This document shows, in pieces, positions 28,547 through 37,505 of a stretch of DNA of 64,000 nt. The stretch lies in NCBI RefSeq assembly GCF_000466385.1, contig NZ_KE952775.1, positions 1-64,000 of the forward strand. The letters are read 5' to 3'. Both the position numbers and the translations under genes were made by a program. Position 1 is the stretch's first letter. Each line of letters opens with the position of its first letter. The DNA is from Aneurinibacillus aneurinilyticus ATCC 12856. GTDB taxonomy: Bacteria > Bacillota > Bacilli > Aneurinibacillales > Aneurinibacillaceae. The notes under the pieces are model-generated. The model was not told where the DNA came from, searched no databases, and saw only the letters and a list, made by a program, of their open reading frames with translations.

Positions 28547-28606
28547 CACCTGCTGCATACATTGTGGTAAACAAGTTTTGCAGCGCAGACAGAGGAGAGG
28601 ATTGAT

Positions 28607-29731
28607 GTGCCTAAAACGCTTATTTTGAGTAAGCCTGTCATTGCCATTACCGGTAGCGCCGGAAAAACAACGACAAAAGAAATGATTGCCTCTATTTTAA
28701 GAACAAGATGGCGTATTTTTGCCTCATACCGCAGCTTCAACCAGCATACGTGCTCTGCGCACAATGCGAAGCGGATTCGCCCGTTTCACCGTGCTGCAGT
28801 ACTTGAATTCGGCATGGGTGCACGTGGACAAATCCGAAAGCATTGTCAGTTCATCCAGCCCAATATGAGTGTTGTTACGAATGTCGGCACAGCGCACATC
28901 GGAAATGTAGGGGGAAGTGTACATGGCATCGCCCAGGCAAAATCGGAATTGATAAAGTATATGAAGCAAACGGGCTATTTGGTGACAAATGCGGACGATT
29001 TGAATTCTGAACTGCTAGAAACAAAAGCATTTCAGGGGACGATTGTTACCGTTGGAATTCACAAGAAAGCGGATTTCCAAGCGGTCAATATTCATTATAA
29101 GAAGGGCGGAATGGGGTTCGATGTACAGCTTGACAAGAAACTGCAATCGTTTTATATTCCGATTTACGGGGAACACAATGTGTATAATGCATTGAATGCC
29201 ATTGCCATCGCCCACGCACTTGGATTTACATCGAAAGAAATACGCTCCGGGCTTGCTTCGTACAAGCGGACGCCCCACCGTCTGAATGTCTTCCGTTATG
29301 GAAGGGGGCTTACATTGATTGACGATTCATGCAGCGCTAATCCTAACGCTGTACGGGCTGCGCTTGACGTATTGAGCAAAATGGACGGGGAAACGAAGAT
29401 CGCTGTGTTGGGTACGATGCTTGCGATGGGCAAATATTCGTCCAAAGCCCATGAAGAAGTTGGGAAATATGTAGCAGATGCCGACATTGATTATTTATAT
29501 ACGTATGGTAAAAAGGCGAGGCTTATTGCATCAGGTGCTATACGTTCCGGTTTTCCGGCTAATAGAATTAGGATGTTCGAGACGGAAGCTACGCTACGCC
29601 GTTCAATTCTTGCCTGTTTGAAACCGAACACGGTCATCCTGCTCAAAGCCTCTCACAAAATCGGGTTAGAGAAAACGGTACAGTATGTAAAGAAACGGGC
29701 AAAAAGCAAAGGGTGGAAGCAGTTGACATGA
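28607..29731 (+). CDS. Mur ligase-family protein lacking the N-terminal substrate domain
   Basis: ATP-dependent amide-ligase family protein, 374 residues, about 80 shorter than MurF. It opens directly at the ATP-binding loop (ITGSAGKTTTKE), then has the Mur central domain (LEFGMGARGQI, VVTNVGTAHIGN, NADD) and the C-terminal ligase domain (TPHRLNVF, LIDDSCSANPNA, VLGTM). The MurF segment SYNNxxGvP is replaced by SFNQHTCSAHN, so UDP-MurNAc-tripeptide ligation is doubtful. GTG 28607 follows GGAGAGGA. It overlaps the next gene by 4 bases. Substrate unknown; a secondary wall or peptide polymer is possible. Confidence 0.78.
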   Translation: MPKTLILSKPVIAITGSAGKTTTKEMIASILRTRWRIFASYRSFNQHTCSAHNAKRIRPFHRAAVLEFGMGARGQIRKHCQFIQPNMSVVTNVGTAHIGNVGGSVHGIAQAKSELIKYMKQTGYLVTNADDLNSELLETKAFQGTIVTVGIHKKADFQAVNIHYKKGGMGFDVQLDKKLQSFYIPIYGEHNVYNALNAIAIAHALGFTSKEIRSGLASYKRTPHRLNVFRYGRGLTLIDDSCSANPNAVRAALDVLSKMDGETKIAVLGTMLAMGKYSSKAHEEVGKYVADADIDYLYTYGKKARLIASGAIRSGFPANRIRMFETEATLRRSILACLKPNTVILLKASHKIGLEKTVQYVKKRAKSKGWKQLT

Positions 29732-30504
29732 GTCGGAAGGAAGCTAGTATGTCTTTGCCGCTTACTGCCAGGGCAGCTTGTCTTATGGATACGGGGAATG
29801 GACAGATATTGTGGGAGAAGAATGCCCACAATCCATTGCCTCCCGCTAGCATGACCAAAATGATGACTGCACTGCTTGTAATCGAACGAGCAGTTGACAT
29901 AAAATCTTCACTTAGGGAACAAGTTCGGGTGAGCCGTCGGGCCGCCGCTGTTCGCGGGTCTAGTATGAAACTCCGTGCTGGGGAACGGATTACCGTCCAT
30001 GCTCTTTTGACAGGACTTCTAATCGCGTCTGGAAATGACGCCGCCGTCGCGTTGGCTGAACATGTGGCCGGAAGCGTTCCATCATTCGTAAAACGAATGA
30101 ATGAAAGAGCCGTACGTCTTGGGCTTATGAATACGCAATTTCGCAATCCGCACGGCTTATCTGTTCAGGATCATTATTCTACCGCTTCTGATATGTGTGC
30201 CATCGCACGTGAGCTTATTCGGCATAAAGAAGTATTACGCATCACTTCGCGTAAACGCATGATCGTACGACGAAACGGACGCACAAATCATTTGCTTCGC
30301 AATACAAATACGCTGCTCGGGACGTATCCCGGTGTCGATGGATTAAAGACCGGGTATACGCCCCGTGCGAAATATTGCCTGTGTGTTACCGCCCCACATC
30401 CGAAGCTGGGGCGATTGATCGCTGTCGTGATGGGAACGCCGACCAAAAAAAAGCGGAACGAAGAAGCGGCAGCCTTGCTTGCCTTTGCAGATACGTTCAC
30501 ATAG
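29728..30504 (+). CDS. D-Ala-D-Ala carboxypeptidase-like protein (S11) without visible signal peptide
   Basis: Penicillin-binding-protein-like serine peptidase. Active-site motifs: Ser and Lys in PASMTKMM near residue 40, SGN in IASGNDAAVALAEHV, and KTG in GVDGLKTGYT. The C-terminal PBP5 domain is absent. ATG 29728 overlaps the Mur-ligase stop (ATGA). From this start there is no hydrophobic export signal, only MSRKEASMSLPLTARAAC, although DacF-type enzymes act outside the membrane. The GTG at 29713 adds no signal either. It may be a cytoplasmic peptidase acting with the Mur ligase, or be exported in some other way. Confidence 0.8.
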   Translation: MSRKEASMSLPLTARAACLMDTGNGQILWEKNAHNPLPPASMTKMMTALLVIERAVDIKSSLREQVRVSRRAAAVRGSSMKLRAGERITVHALLTGLLIASGNDAAVALAEHVAGSVPSFVKRMNERAVRLGLMNTQFRNPHGLSVQDHYSTASDMCAIARELIRHKEVLRITSRKRMIVRRNGRTNHLLRNTNTLLGTYPGVDGLKTGYTPRAKYCLCVTAPHPKLGRLIAVVMGTPTKKKRNEEAAALLAFADTFT

Positions 30505-35189: not shown

Positions 35190-36131
35190 ATGCAGGCAAT
35201 ACGACTTGTAAATACAACCGATCTTGCGCACGATGAGTGGCTGGCCTGGCGCAGAAAGGGAATCAGTGGAAGCGATGTAGGGGCCATCTGTGGCGTGGAT
35301 AAGCATAAATCGGCGATTGCTGTCTATCTGGAGAAAGTAGGACAGACAGTGGAGAAGGAAAATACGGAGGCGATGCACTTCGGGCATGTGCTTGAAGAAG
35401 TTATTGCAGACGAATTCTCCCGCAGGACCGGGTATAAATTACAGCGCCGGAATGCGATTCTGCAACATCCCGATACAGAATGGGCCATCGGCAATATTGA
35501 CCGACTCATTCTCGATGCTGAACGCGGCAACGGCGTGCTTGAGATTAAAACCGCCTCTGAATATATGCGCAAGGAATGGGAGGAGGAAGGAATTCCAGAG
35601 GTCTACCAGCTGCAGCTCCAATGGTATTTGTATGTGACAGGTCTGAGATGGGGAGCGTTTGCCGTGCTTATCGGCGGCAATACATTTCATTACCATATTA
35701 TAGAACGGGATGAGGAGCTGATTGAGCTTAGTGTACAAATCTGCGGGCATTTCTGGAATAGCCATGTCCTCGCTCGTATTCCTCCATTGCCGGATGGGAG
35801 CGAAGCAGCAACAGAATTGCTTGGACAAATGTATCCTGAAGGGGAAACGGACAGCGTTATGGTGCTGCCGGATGAAGCCGAAGAGTTGATTGGTCAATGG
35901 GAACAGGCGGAACAAGATATACAAGAAGCCGAAACGCGCAAAAGGGAAGCCGAGAATCGGCTTAAAGCATTAATTGGCCGATACGAGACCGGTATTACGA
36001 ATGAACATCGTATTAGCTGGAAGAATATCTCCCGCAGGACTGTAGATGTGAAGGCACTTAAGGAAAAGCGGCCAGATATTTATGAGCAGTTCGTCCGTCC
36101 GACGATGTCACGTCGTTTCTTAATTACGTAA
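35190..36131 (+). CDS. YqaJ-type exonuclease
   Basis: Lambda-exonuclease-like nuclease (YqaJ family, PD-(D/E)xK fold), 313 residues. Motifs: WLAWRRKGISGSDVGAICG at the start (helix and Ser/Asp pattern typical of YqaJ), HFGHVLEEVI with the first acidic residue, AIGNIDRLI and VLEIKTAS with the catalytic Asp, Glu and Lys. A coiled coil occupies about residues 235-265. GGAGGAAAC precedes the ATG. It is followed 20 bases later by recT; the two proteins form a phage-type end-resection and annealing pair. Confidence 0.9.
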   Translation: MQAIRLVNTTDLAHDEWLAWRRKGISGSDVGAICGVDKHKSAIAVYLEKVGQTVEKENTEAMHFGHVLEEVIADEFSRRTGYKLQRRNAILQHPDTEWAIGNIDRLILDAERGNGVLEIKTASEYMRKEWEEEGIPEVYQLQLQWYLYVTGLRWGAFAVLIGGNTFHYHIIERDEELIELSVQICGHFWNSHVLARIPPLPDGSEAATELLGQMYPEGETDSVMVLPDEAEELIGQWEQAEQDIQEAETRKREAENRLKALIGRYETGITNEHRISWKNISRRTVDVKALKEKRPDIYEQFVRPTMSRRFLIT

Positions 36132-36151
36132 ACGTAACAGGAGGCAATACA

Positions 36152-36988
36152 ATGGCAGACGATTTGAAGAGTAAATTGCAGGCAAAAGCACAAGAAACAC
36201 ACAGCAGCCCACCAACACCGGCACAGACCATCGGCGCTTATCTAAAAAAGATGGAACCTGAAATCGCCCGTGTGATGCCAAAACATATGGATGTGGATCG
36301 GTTGTTACGCATCGCATTGACGACCATTCGCACCAATCCCCAGCTATTAGAGTGTACCATTCCTTCCCTTCTGGGCGCTGTCATGCAGGCGGCACAGCTT
36401 GGTCTTGAACCGGGGCTTCTTGGACAATGCTATATCATTCCATACGGACGGGAAGCAACATTTATTATCGGCTATAAAGGCATGATTGATCTGGCGCGCC
36501 GTTCCGGGAACATCAAGAGTATATATGCACATGAAGTATACACTAATGATGAATTCGAATACGAATACGGCTTACACCCGTCACTTACGCATCGTCCAGC
36601 GATGAATGAGCGGGGTGAGCTTATCGGCGTCTATGCGGTCGCACACTTTATGGACGGCGGTTACCAGTTTGAATTTATGTCTAAAGAAGAAATCGACAGA
36701 CGCCGTATGCGTTCCCGTTCATATAACAGCGGTCCTTGGGTAACCGATTATGAAGAAATGGCCAAGAAAACAGTCATCCGTCACATGTTTAAATATCTGC
36801 CGCTCAGCGTAGAAATTATGCGCAGCGCAGCGCAGGATGAAACAGTACGCCCGGATGTAACTGAAGATGCGATCAGCGTGTATAACCGACCATTGGAAGC
36901 ACAAGTCATTTCTATGGAAGGTGAGCAAGCAGATGAACAAAATGGGAGCCGACAAAATAAAGGAAGAAAAAACGAAACAGACACCTAA
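36152..36988 (+). CDS. recT: RecT-family single-strand annealing protein
   Basis: Anneals complementary single strands and promotes strand exchange with a partner exonuclease. The 278 residues show the RecT core: LLRIALTTIRTNP, LEPGLLGQCYIIPYG, ATFIIGYKGMIDLARRSG, and WVTDYEEMAKKTVIRHMFKYLPL. It follows the YqaJ-like gene with a good AGGAGG site. No integrase, portal, capsid, holin-lysin or replication genes of a phage flank the pair. Confidence 0.93.
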   Translation: MADDLKSKLQAKAQETHSSPPTPAQTIGAYLKKMEPEIARVMPKHMDVDRLLRIALTTIRTNPQLLECTIPSLLGAVMQAAQLGLEPGLLGQCYIIPYGREATFIIGYKGMIDLARRSGNIKSIYAHEVYTNDEFEYEYGLHPSLTHRPAMNERGELIGVYAVAHFMDGGYQFEFMSKEEIDRRRMRSRSYNSGPWVTDYEEMAKKTVIRHMFKYLPLSVEIMRSAAQDETVRPDVTEDAISVYNRPLEAQVISMEGEQADEQNGSRQNKGRKNETDT

Positions 36989-37018
36989 TTTTCATATACA
37001 ATAAAAGAAAACGTCTAT

Positions 37019-37131
37019 CAACCTAGGGTTCTCATTCCTTGCCGATGGCTAGTTTTACTTATCGGGGTCTTGGGGGCAGTTATACCCCATGGAGTGCACT
37101 TGAAGTGGGGGTTTTACTGCCCGTTGGACCG
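37019..37131 (+). other. highly structured untranslated stretch of unknown identity
   Basis: Three stem-loops in tandem: AACC-tag-GGTT (37019-37029), CCGAT/ATCGG (37042-37046 and 37061-37065), and a long hairpin in which GGTC (37066-37069) pairs GACC (37127-37130), GGGCAGT (37074-37080) pairs ACTGCCC (37116-37122), and CCCC (37085-37088) pairs GGGG (37107-37110). No T-run follows, so it is not a simple terminator. It could be an RNA element, a leader of the following gene, or the palindromic end of a lost IS200/IS605-type element. Confidence 0.5.
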
Positions 37132-37166
37132 GGATAGAATAGAAGGAACGGAAAGGAGAAGATAGT

Positions 37167-37505
37167 ATGAAATGGATTTGGCATTGGATTTTATCTGCCG
37201 TCTCGCTTTTGATTGTAGCCTGGCTATTTGATGCCATCTGGTTCGATAGTGTAGCAGCTGCCTTCATTGCTGCGCTTGTACTTGGATTAATTAATGCGAT
37301 TTTGCGCCCGATCCTGCAGTTTTTAGCTCTGCCAGTCACAATTCTGACGTTAGGTATATTCGCACTTATCATTAATGCGCTTCTGCTATTGCTAACCGGT
37401 AAGCTTGTGCCAGGATTTCATGTGGACAGCTTTTTTGCCGCATTTTTTGGTTCCATTGTGCTTTCGATTGTTAGCAGTATCCTATCGGCAGTTTTTGAAG
37501 ATTGA
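37167..37505 (+). CDS. YvlD/phage-holin-4-like membrane protein
   Basis: A 112-residue protein with four membrane helices of the Phage_holin_4_2 (YvlD) family: the opening WIWHWILSAVSLLIVAWLF, then GLINAILRPILQFLALPVTILTLGIF, which carries the family-typical N-x-x-L-R-P segment, and a C-terminal Ser-rich helix. Despite the name most members are chromosomal envelope proteins. AAAGGAGAAG lies before the ATG. A perfect terminator follows. Confidence 0.85.
   Translation: MKWIWHWILSAVSLLIVAWLFDAIWFDSVAAAFIAALVLGLINAILRPILQFLALPVTILTLGIFALIINALLLLLTGKLVPGFHVDSFFAAFFGSIVLSIVSSILSAVFED

Follow-up and report, generated by a model that had tools for sequence, protein, structure and literature searches.

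Two overlapping genes of Aneurinibacillus aneurinilyticus ATCC 12856, which encode a MurF-like ligase without its N-terminal domain and an S11 DD-peptidase without a leader, are read here, with a probability of roughly 0.4, as a translationally coupled mother-cell sporulation module that would create an amide bond on an acceptor without UDP and trim or transfer a D-Ala end, for the spore envelope. The pair lies in the first 64,000 nucleotides of contig NZ_KE952775.1 (assembly GCF_000466385.1), the whole stretch of DNA that was analysed and that is termed the window below. An earlier note on this DNA had proposed that the two proteins together make and trim a peptide product in the cytoplasm. 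What the note had observed proved correct on every point tested. The idea of a cytoplasmic product is plausible and is better recast as a sporulation module; the loss of the PBP5_C domain from the peptidase, the wide clade to which the ligase belongs and the sporulation context all go beyond that note. The features of the locus are the following:

28555..28564, + strand, sigK/sigE-like -10 element GCATACATTG (upstream alignment, pattern count)
28592..28600, + strand, RBS-like sequence GAGGAGAGG (read from sequence)
28607..29731, + strand, MurF-like ligase without N-terminal domain, 374 aa, GTG start (ORF, Pfam, tree)
28652..28675, + strand, ATP loop GSAGKTTT, ligase residues 16-23
29276..29653, + strand, Mur_ligase_C domain, ligase residues 224-349 (Pfam)
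29728..30504, + strand, S11 DD-peptidase without leader, 258 aa, ATGA overlap with the ligase gene, without PBP5_C (Pfam, alignment, hydropathy)

The ligase does begin at its ATP loop and lacks the MurF substrate domain, as had been claimed, since Pfam recognizes only Mur_ligase_M (residues 14-202) and Mur_ligase_C, and a stop codon stands in frame at 28568-28570, 12 codons 5' of the GTG at 28607. This stop rules out a missed upstream start; no N-terminal domain can be read in frame, so that its absence is not an annotation slip. The genome encodes six Mur_ligase_M proteins, namely the window ligase, MurE, MurD, MurC and FolC (the last four assigned by reading their sequences and context) and a full MurF (L002, assigned by its domains) of 461 aa with all three domains, including the N-domain PF01225, and this intact copy excludes the possibility that the window ligase is the sole essential MurF minus a domain.

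What remains of the protein is MurF-like, with the middle and C-terminal domains, the ATP loop, the catalytic lysine and the acidic residues of that enzyme, yet its score against the NCBIfam MurF family TIGR01143 is 281, below the cut-off of 288.6. The absence of the usual NN-IG motif, noticed earlier, was borne out in a comparison with 55 MurF-type sequences, a set that was gathered by similarity to the pair, which makes it an uneven sample, and that omits repeats, rows with a score below 190 and the loci L050, L051, L078 and L089: the NN-xxG-P loop is changed by N46>Q, G49>C and P51>A, and the YNANP motif is not kept, with Y242>C, N243>S, E273>A and R>H350. The MurF-conserved P-loop, E67, H97, K112, N194, R225, D240, H282 and K347 are retained in all six pair ligases, and presumably these positions have the roles known for MurF (carbamylated-lysine position, Mg-binding Glu, conserved His and Asp). 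The structural model (pLDDT 93.4) was compared by VIA-align, which covered the ligase model of the two proteins; its top fold match is A. baumannii MurF (Z 41.8, 1.9 A, 350 residues), with the target chain numbered from 98, and it also aligns to cyanophycin synthetase (Z 32.8) and folylpolyglutamate synthase (Z 30.3). Identity as a cyanophycin synthetase was rejected because Pfam finds no ATP-grasp domain in the protein, and the PgsB model (CapB/PgsB poly-gamma-glutamate synthase) is absent among the best 25 of the 27 NCBIfam families that match the ligase.

Relatives with the same truncated architecture are widespread. A contig profile search returned at least 80 loci; among the matches listed, L030-L051, L063 and L066 (24) are Bacilli relatives with an identity of at least 41%, and the remaining matches listed are MurF-type proteins with 37% or less. 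Ligase-profile matches at E 1e-85 or better were found in 90 of 398 genomes of the class, a count that includes MurF-like proteins of 460-500 residues and frames of 700-890 residues. The scores fall into classes: at least 446 for stand-alone ligases without the N-domain, 437 and 425 for two fusions, and at most 340 for proteins with the MurF N-domain. Stand-alone members carry an N-terminal extension of up to 61 residues, apart from 142 in L032, whose start is suspected to be wrong; the frames of L050 and L051 are broken, and L089 runs into a contig end. In a 72-row tree, which took 17 of the fetched MurF rows, 48 rows without the N-domain (six from the pair, 40 others and two YheC/D fusions) are split off from the rest by a 100/99 branch, the six pair ligases form their own 100/99 branch, and the 17 MurF rows stand outside together with seven Bacilli rows that have the N-domain. 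The window ligase has the two-domain length and a position within the supported branch, and by the tree it is a member of a clade, itself well supported, of MurF relatives that lack the N-domain and occur in spore-forming Bacilli. The closest relatives outside this clade are MurF-like ligases of Bacilli that possess an N-terminal part (L029, L063, L066, L115), which differ from that of the window by about 90-120 residues ahead of the ATP domain.

The second gene starts at ATG 29728, and the 4-base overlap reported before is confirmed as ATGA at 29728-29731; the longest open reading frame would begin at GTG 29713, and four of five orthologues start at or near the ATG position. The product matches Pfam S11 with E 1e-67, and the SxxK, SGN and KTG motifs seen in the first reading (S41-x-x-K44, S101-G-N103 and K207-T-G209, numbered from the ATG) are kept in 6/6 orthologues; its motifs and fold are of the DD-carboxypeptidase type. 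AK replaces AG after KTG, a feature that DacF-type rows share and that is not peculiar to the pair. Over 14 residues before the S11 domain the maximal hydropathy reaches 0.80-1.46 in the six pair peptidases, whereas 28/28 other S11 proteins measured lie at 1.66-3.02, and no upstream start that would give a signal peptide exists; judged by hydropathy, the pair peptidases are without a signal peptide, in agreement with the earlier claim. The C-terminal end is also short: from KTG to the last residue there are 52 residues in the window peptidase and 47-58 in the pair members, against 147-185 in the 28 other S11 proteins, and PBP5_C is not present by Pfam. Both ligase and peptidase appear, from their predicted features, to be cytosolic.

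The genome has six S11 matches. One of them (L012, G000:C183) is truncated, with a signal-peptide-like start and a domain that ends after the SxxK region, where another frame overlaps, and is a probable broken dac gene. The nearest paralogue of the window peptidase is the homologue of the sporulation DD-carboxypeptidase DacF (L007), 44% identical to it within the S11 domain; spoIIAA- and spoIIAB-like ORFs come after the L007 gene. DacF has both a signal peptide and PBP5_C, whereas the window peptidase has neither.

The two genes are adjacent in 6 of 11 genomes of the family, namely that of the window itself, four others from its genus and one from a different genus (G008), in which the flanking genes around the pair differ. 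Adjacency holds in all six genomes that carry the leaderless S11 protein, across two genera with unlike flanks. The dN/dS ratios between the window and G002 are 0.097 (ligase) and 0.143 (peptidase); in most of the other comparisons synonymous sites are saturated. A class-wide survey, of the kind suggested in the earlier note for Bacillales, placed the ligase clade across spore-forming Bacilli, mostly without the peptidase, and the leaderless S11 partner in 6 of the 398 class genomes; the pair members score E 1e-135 to 1e-148, and the best S11 match after them E 1e-97, in frames some 400 residues long. Conservation of the pair, under what these ratios indicate to be purifying selection, shows that it is not debris; intact murF and dacF lie elsewhere in the genome. 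Neither of the two objections that the earlier note had named against its own claim, an upstream start with a signal peptide or a decayed copy, applies. Since most genomes with the ligase have no such S11 protein, the peptidase is a partner of local distribution, and elsewhere the ligase works without it. As we read the alignments, a DacF-like protein probably lost its export signal and C-terminal domain in Aneurinibacillaceae and was then coupled to an older sporulation ligase.

The six pair upstreams have drifted except for a block around GCTGCATACATTGT, about 40 bases before the start, which is the longest conserved run; at the -10 element five of the six share CTGCATACATTGT and the sixth has CATAAATTGT. 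The -10 motif CATANNNT occurs in 36 of 45 ligase upstreams (it is missing from the other nine) compared to 43 of 298 other genes of the same loci, and this difference in frequency is the result, since the pattern was picked after looking and related sequences are not independent, which makes the P value of 1e-18 too strong. The 45 upstreams omit repeats, the two fusions, L125 (no pattern match) and the broken frames L050 and L051, which fall below the score limit. For B. subtilis, one source gives the consensus KCACM/GCATANNNTA for sigK and TYATATTT/KCATANANTN for sigE (PMC3416734), and another a sigK spacing of 14-16 between -35 and -10 (PMC517825). The window -35, ACACG, matches KCACM weakly; AC at the fitting -35 distance (14-16 bp) is present in 25/45 family upstreams and in 11/298 of the others, and the Brevibacillus loci show tACAgg on the -35 side, with 16 bases from ACA to CATA. 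The pattern TGCATACATTGT occurs three times in the genome, against once for a reversed control pattern; as a repeated regulatory site it was set aside and no regulon was drawn, one other copy (L118) lying by eye inside a transporter gene.

SpoIVA is encoded in 43/43 genomes with a stand-alone ligase without N-domain (a class assigned by our own classification), in 90/90 with any ligase-profile match and in 268/398 overall, and none of the 130 genomes without SpoIVA has a ligase match, a co-occurrence in which spore-former status is confounded with phylogeny. The link of the ligase to sporulation is well supported, and both genes of the pair appear to be switched on during spore formation. In the window itself the pair is flanked by genes for an aldo/keto reductase and a sigma-54 activator, neither with a spore link. 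Farther along, at 35190-37505 (+), genes for a YqaJ recombinase, RecT and Phage_holin_4_2 stand in a row; YqaJ is 75-89% identical and near the same place in four genomes (G001, G002, G004, G005), and YqaJ and RecT look like a domesticated phage recombination pair and not a recent prophage.

Among 26 ligase loci checked for neighbours, S11 stands beside the ligase in one (L030, from the same genome as G008), and PGA_cap genes lie near it in eight (Brevibacillus and two others), mostly as immediate neighbours in divergent orientation. In the Brevibacillus loci L031-L043 these divergent PGA_cap (CapA-like) proteins start, by eye, without a signal peptide, which makes them a further usually surface-linked family in leaderless form. 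CgeB-like glycosyltransferases and polysaccharide deacetylases are found in L045-L048, L027 and L028; the label CgeB-like is our assumption, and the one protein tested by Pfam has Glyco_trans_1_2 and DUF3880. A YheC/D ATP-grasp gene adjoins the ligase in L044 and L045, lies about 6.6 kb away in L047 and exists as a fusion with it in L063 and L066. These CgeB-like, deacetylase and YheC/D genes are, like the Hydrolase_2 genes described below, of a spore type. In L034, L036, L040 and L042 no partner of these kinds is among the two ORFs that lie closest to the ligase on either side, which speaks against a universal one.

In the YheC/D fusions the ligase half falls inside the N-domain-less clade, and they carry an ATP-grasp domain, recalling cyanophycin synthetase, whereas the window ligase is free-standing and the YheC/D ATP-grasp gene of the window (PF14398, 52682-53779, +) is 23 kb from the pair. 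The clusters with these fusions (L063 5063-12073 and L066 3268-10517, in Psychrobacillus and Metasolibacillus) also encode an ATP-grasp-like protein of about 400 aa (by eye) and two more MurF-like ligases, and are candidates for a multi-ligase peptide pathway. A YheC/D gene also adjoins a MurF-like ligase with the N-terminal part in L029 and L114; L029 (7765-9249), from the same-genus genome G003, which is without the pair, has about 121 residues before the ATP domain and stands directly 3' of the YheC/D gene. YheC/D and CgeB-like proteins are tied to spores, while their products are, to our knowledge, not settled. YheC/D may be mentioned together with Mur ligases in a survey from 2009 on ATP-grasp amidoligases. 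In B. subtilis, yheC and yheD are sigE genes raised by SpoIIID (PMC517825).

On the reading preferred here, the two enzymes would be made together in the mother cell during sporulation, coupled by the ATGA overlap. Mur ligases generally drive amide bond formation with ATP via an acyl phosphate; in the mother-cell cytosol the ligase would in this way activate the carboxylate of an acceptor, probably a non-UDP one because the UDP-MurNAc-binding domain is gone, and what is joined to it may be a single amino acid or a dipeptide, for example D-Ala-D-Ala. Motifs and fold of the peptidase point to D-Ala-D-Ala chemistry, and it would trim or transfer the D-Ala end of the ligase product. In the ligase, the substitutions Y242>C, N243>S, E273>A and R>H350 make D-Ala-D-Ala doubtful as the donor. 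If both enzymes act on it, the shared product would show the net addition of one D-Ala, or a transfer. This is the least certain step: of the joint make-and-trim idea, predicted cytosolic location, conserved adjacency and intact catalytic residues stand, and the common product is deduced from adjacency and overlap. Either this product or the enzymes themselves may finally reach the outer spore layers, as does the cortex hydrolase CwlJ, an example of a cell-wall enzyme that the mother cell makes without export: it is produced there in an already mature form and deposited in the coat (PMC11841064). CwlJ belongs to a different enzyme family and is not coupled to the window ligase.

CwlJ is also the model for a possible, if unlikely, alternative in which the genes are co-regulated and their functions separate: the ligase would, as in other lineages, make a polymer of the coat or crust, and the S11 enzyme would be a spore-deposited or lysis-stage wall enzyme whose target is the cortex or the mother-cell wall once the mother cell has opened. 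Such a division would suit the Hydrolase_2 protein (CwlJ/SleB-type, leaderless by eye) that is next door to the ligase in the CgeB-type loci L045, L047 and L048, the dacF paralogue with its spoIIA-like neighbours and the majority of genomes, where the ligase occurs without S11; the ATGA overlap and strict adjacency in 6/6 genomes suggest, however, a tighter coupling. DacF and DacB act on the spore cortex in B. subtilis, and since the window peptidase is of the DD-carboxypeptidase type, it might trim UDP-MurNAc-pentapeptide or a relative in the mother cell for less cortex cross-linking while the ligase re-adds or alters the end. Such precursor editing seems improbable for a ligase without the UDP-MurNAc-binding domain and the MurF-conserved loop residues, in a genome with an intact MurF. 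No more probable is a metabolite or storage-peptide pathway unrelated to spores, like those of two-domain FolC, CapB or cyanophycin-type ligases: Mur-type folds on non-UDP substrates exist, the model aligns to two such enzymes and PGA_cap genes lie near the ligase in 8/26 loci, but the mother-cell-type promoter motif and the co-occurrence with SpoIVA argue otherwise. That the genes are decayed, functionless copies of murF and dacF is barely credible, for although both proteins are shorter than the canonical enzymes, their low dN/dS, invariant catalytic residues and shared architecture in six genomes contradict decay.

Neither protein of the pair is a new fold, and neither their combination nor the clade was found described in the literature searched. 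That search covered open-access PMC, so that absence there is weak evidence; it returned no description of the ligase-peptidase pair, no papers that link MurF to a leaderless carboxypeptidase, and none that connect a Mur ligase to YheC and ATP-grasp proteins, to CgeB and spores, or to sporulation in Paenibacillus.

The pair suggests a peptide-building step for outer spore layers that has not been described. In its most specific form, which we regard as unlikely, a headless MurF in the mother cell of Aneurinibacillaceae would attach a peptide of D-amino acids to a glycan or peptide of the coat or crust, with no UDP carrier, and a cytosolic penicillin-binding-protein fold would trim or cross-link that peptide; the spore surface would thereby gain a peptide polymer distinct from the cortex and from known coat material. 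The ligase clade, with a shared kind of promoter motif and neighbours, offers an enzyme open to assay, and with the pair comes a penicillin-binding-protein fold expected to act inside the cell. Should their product be identified, a class of amide polymers or tags on the spore surface would come to light.
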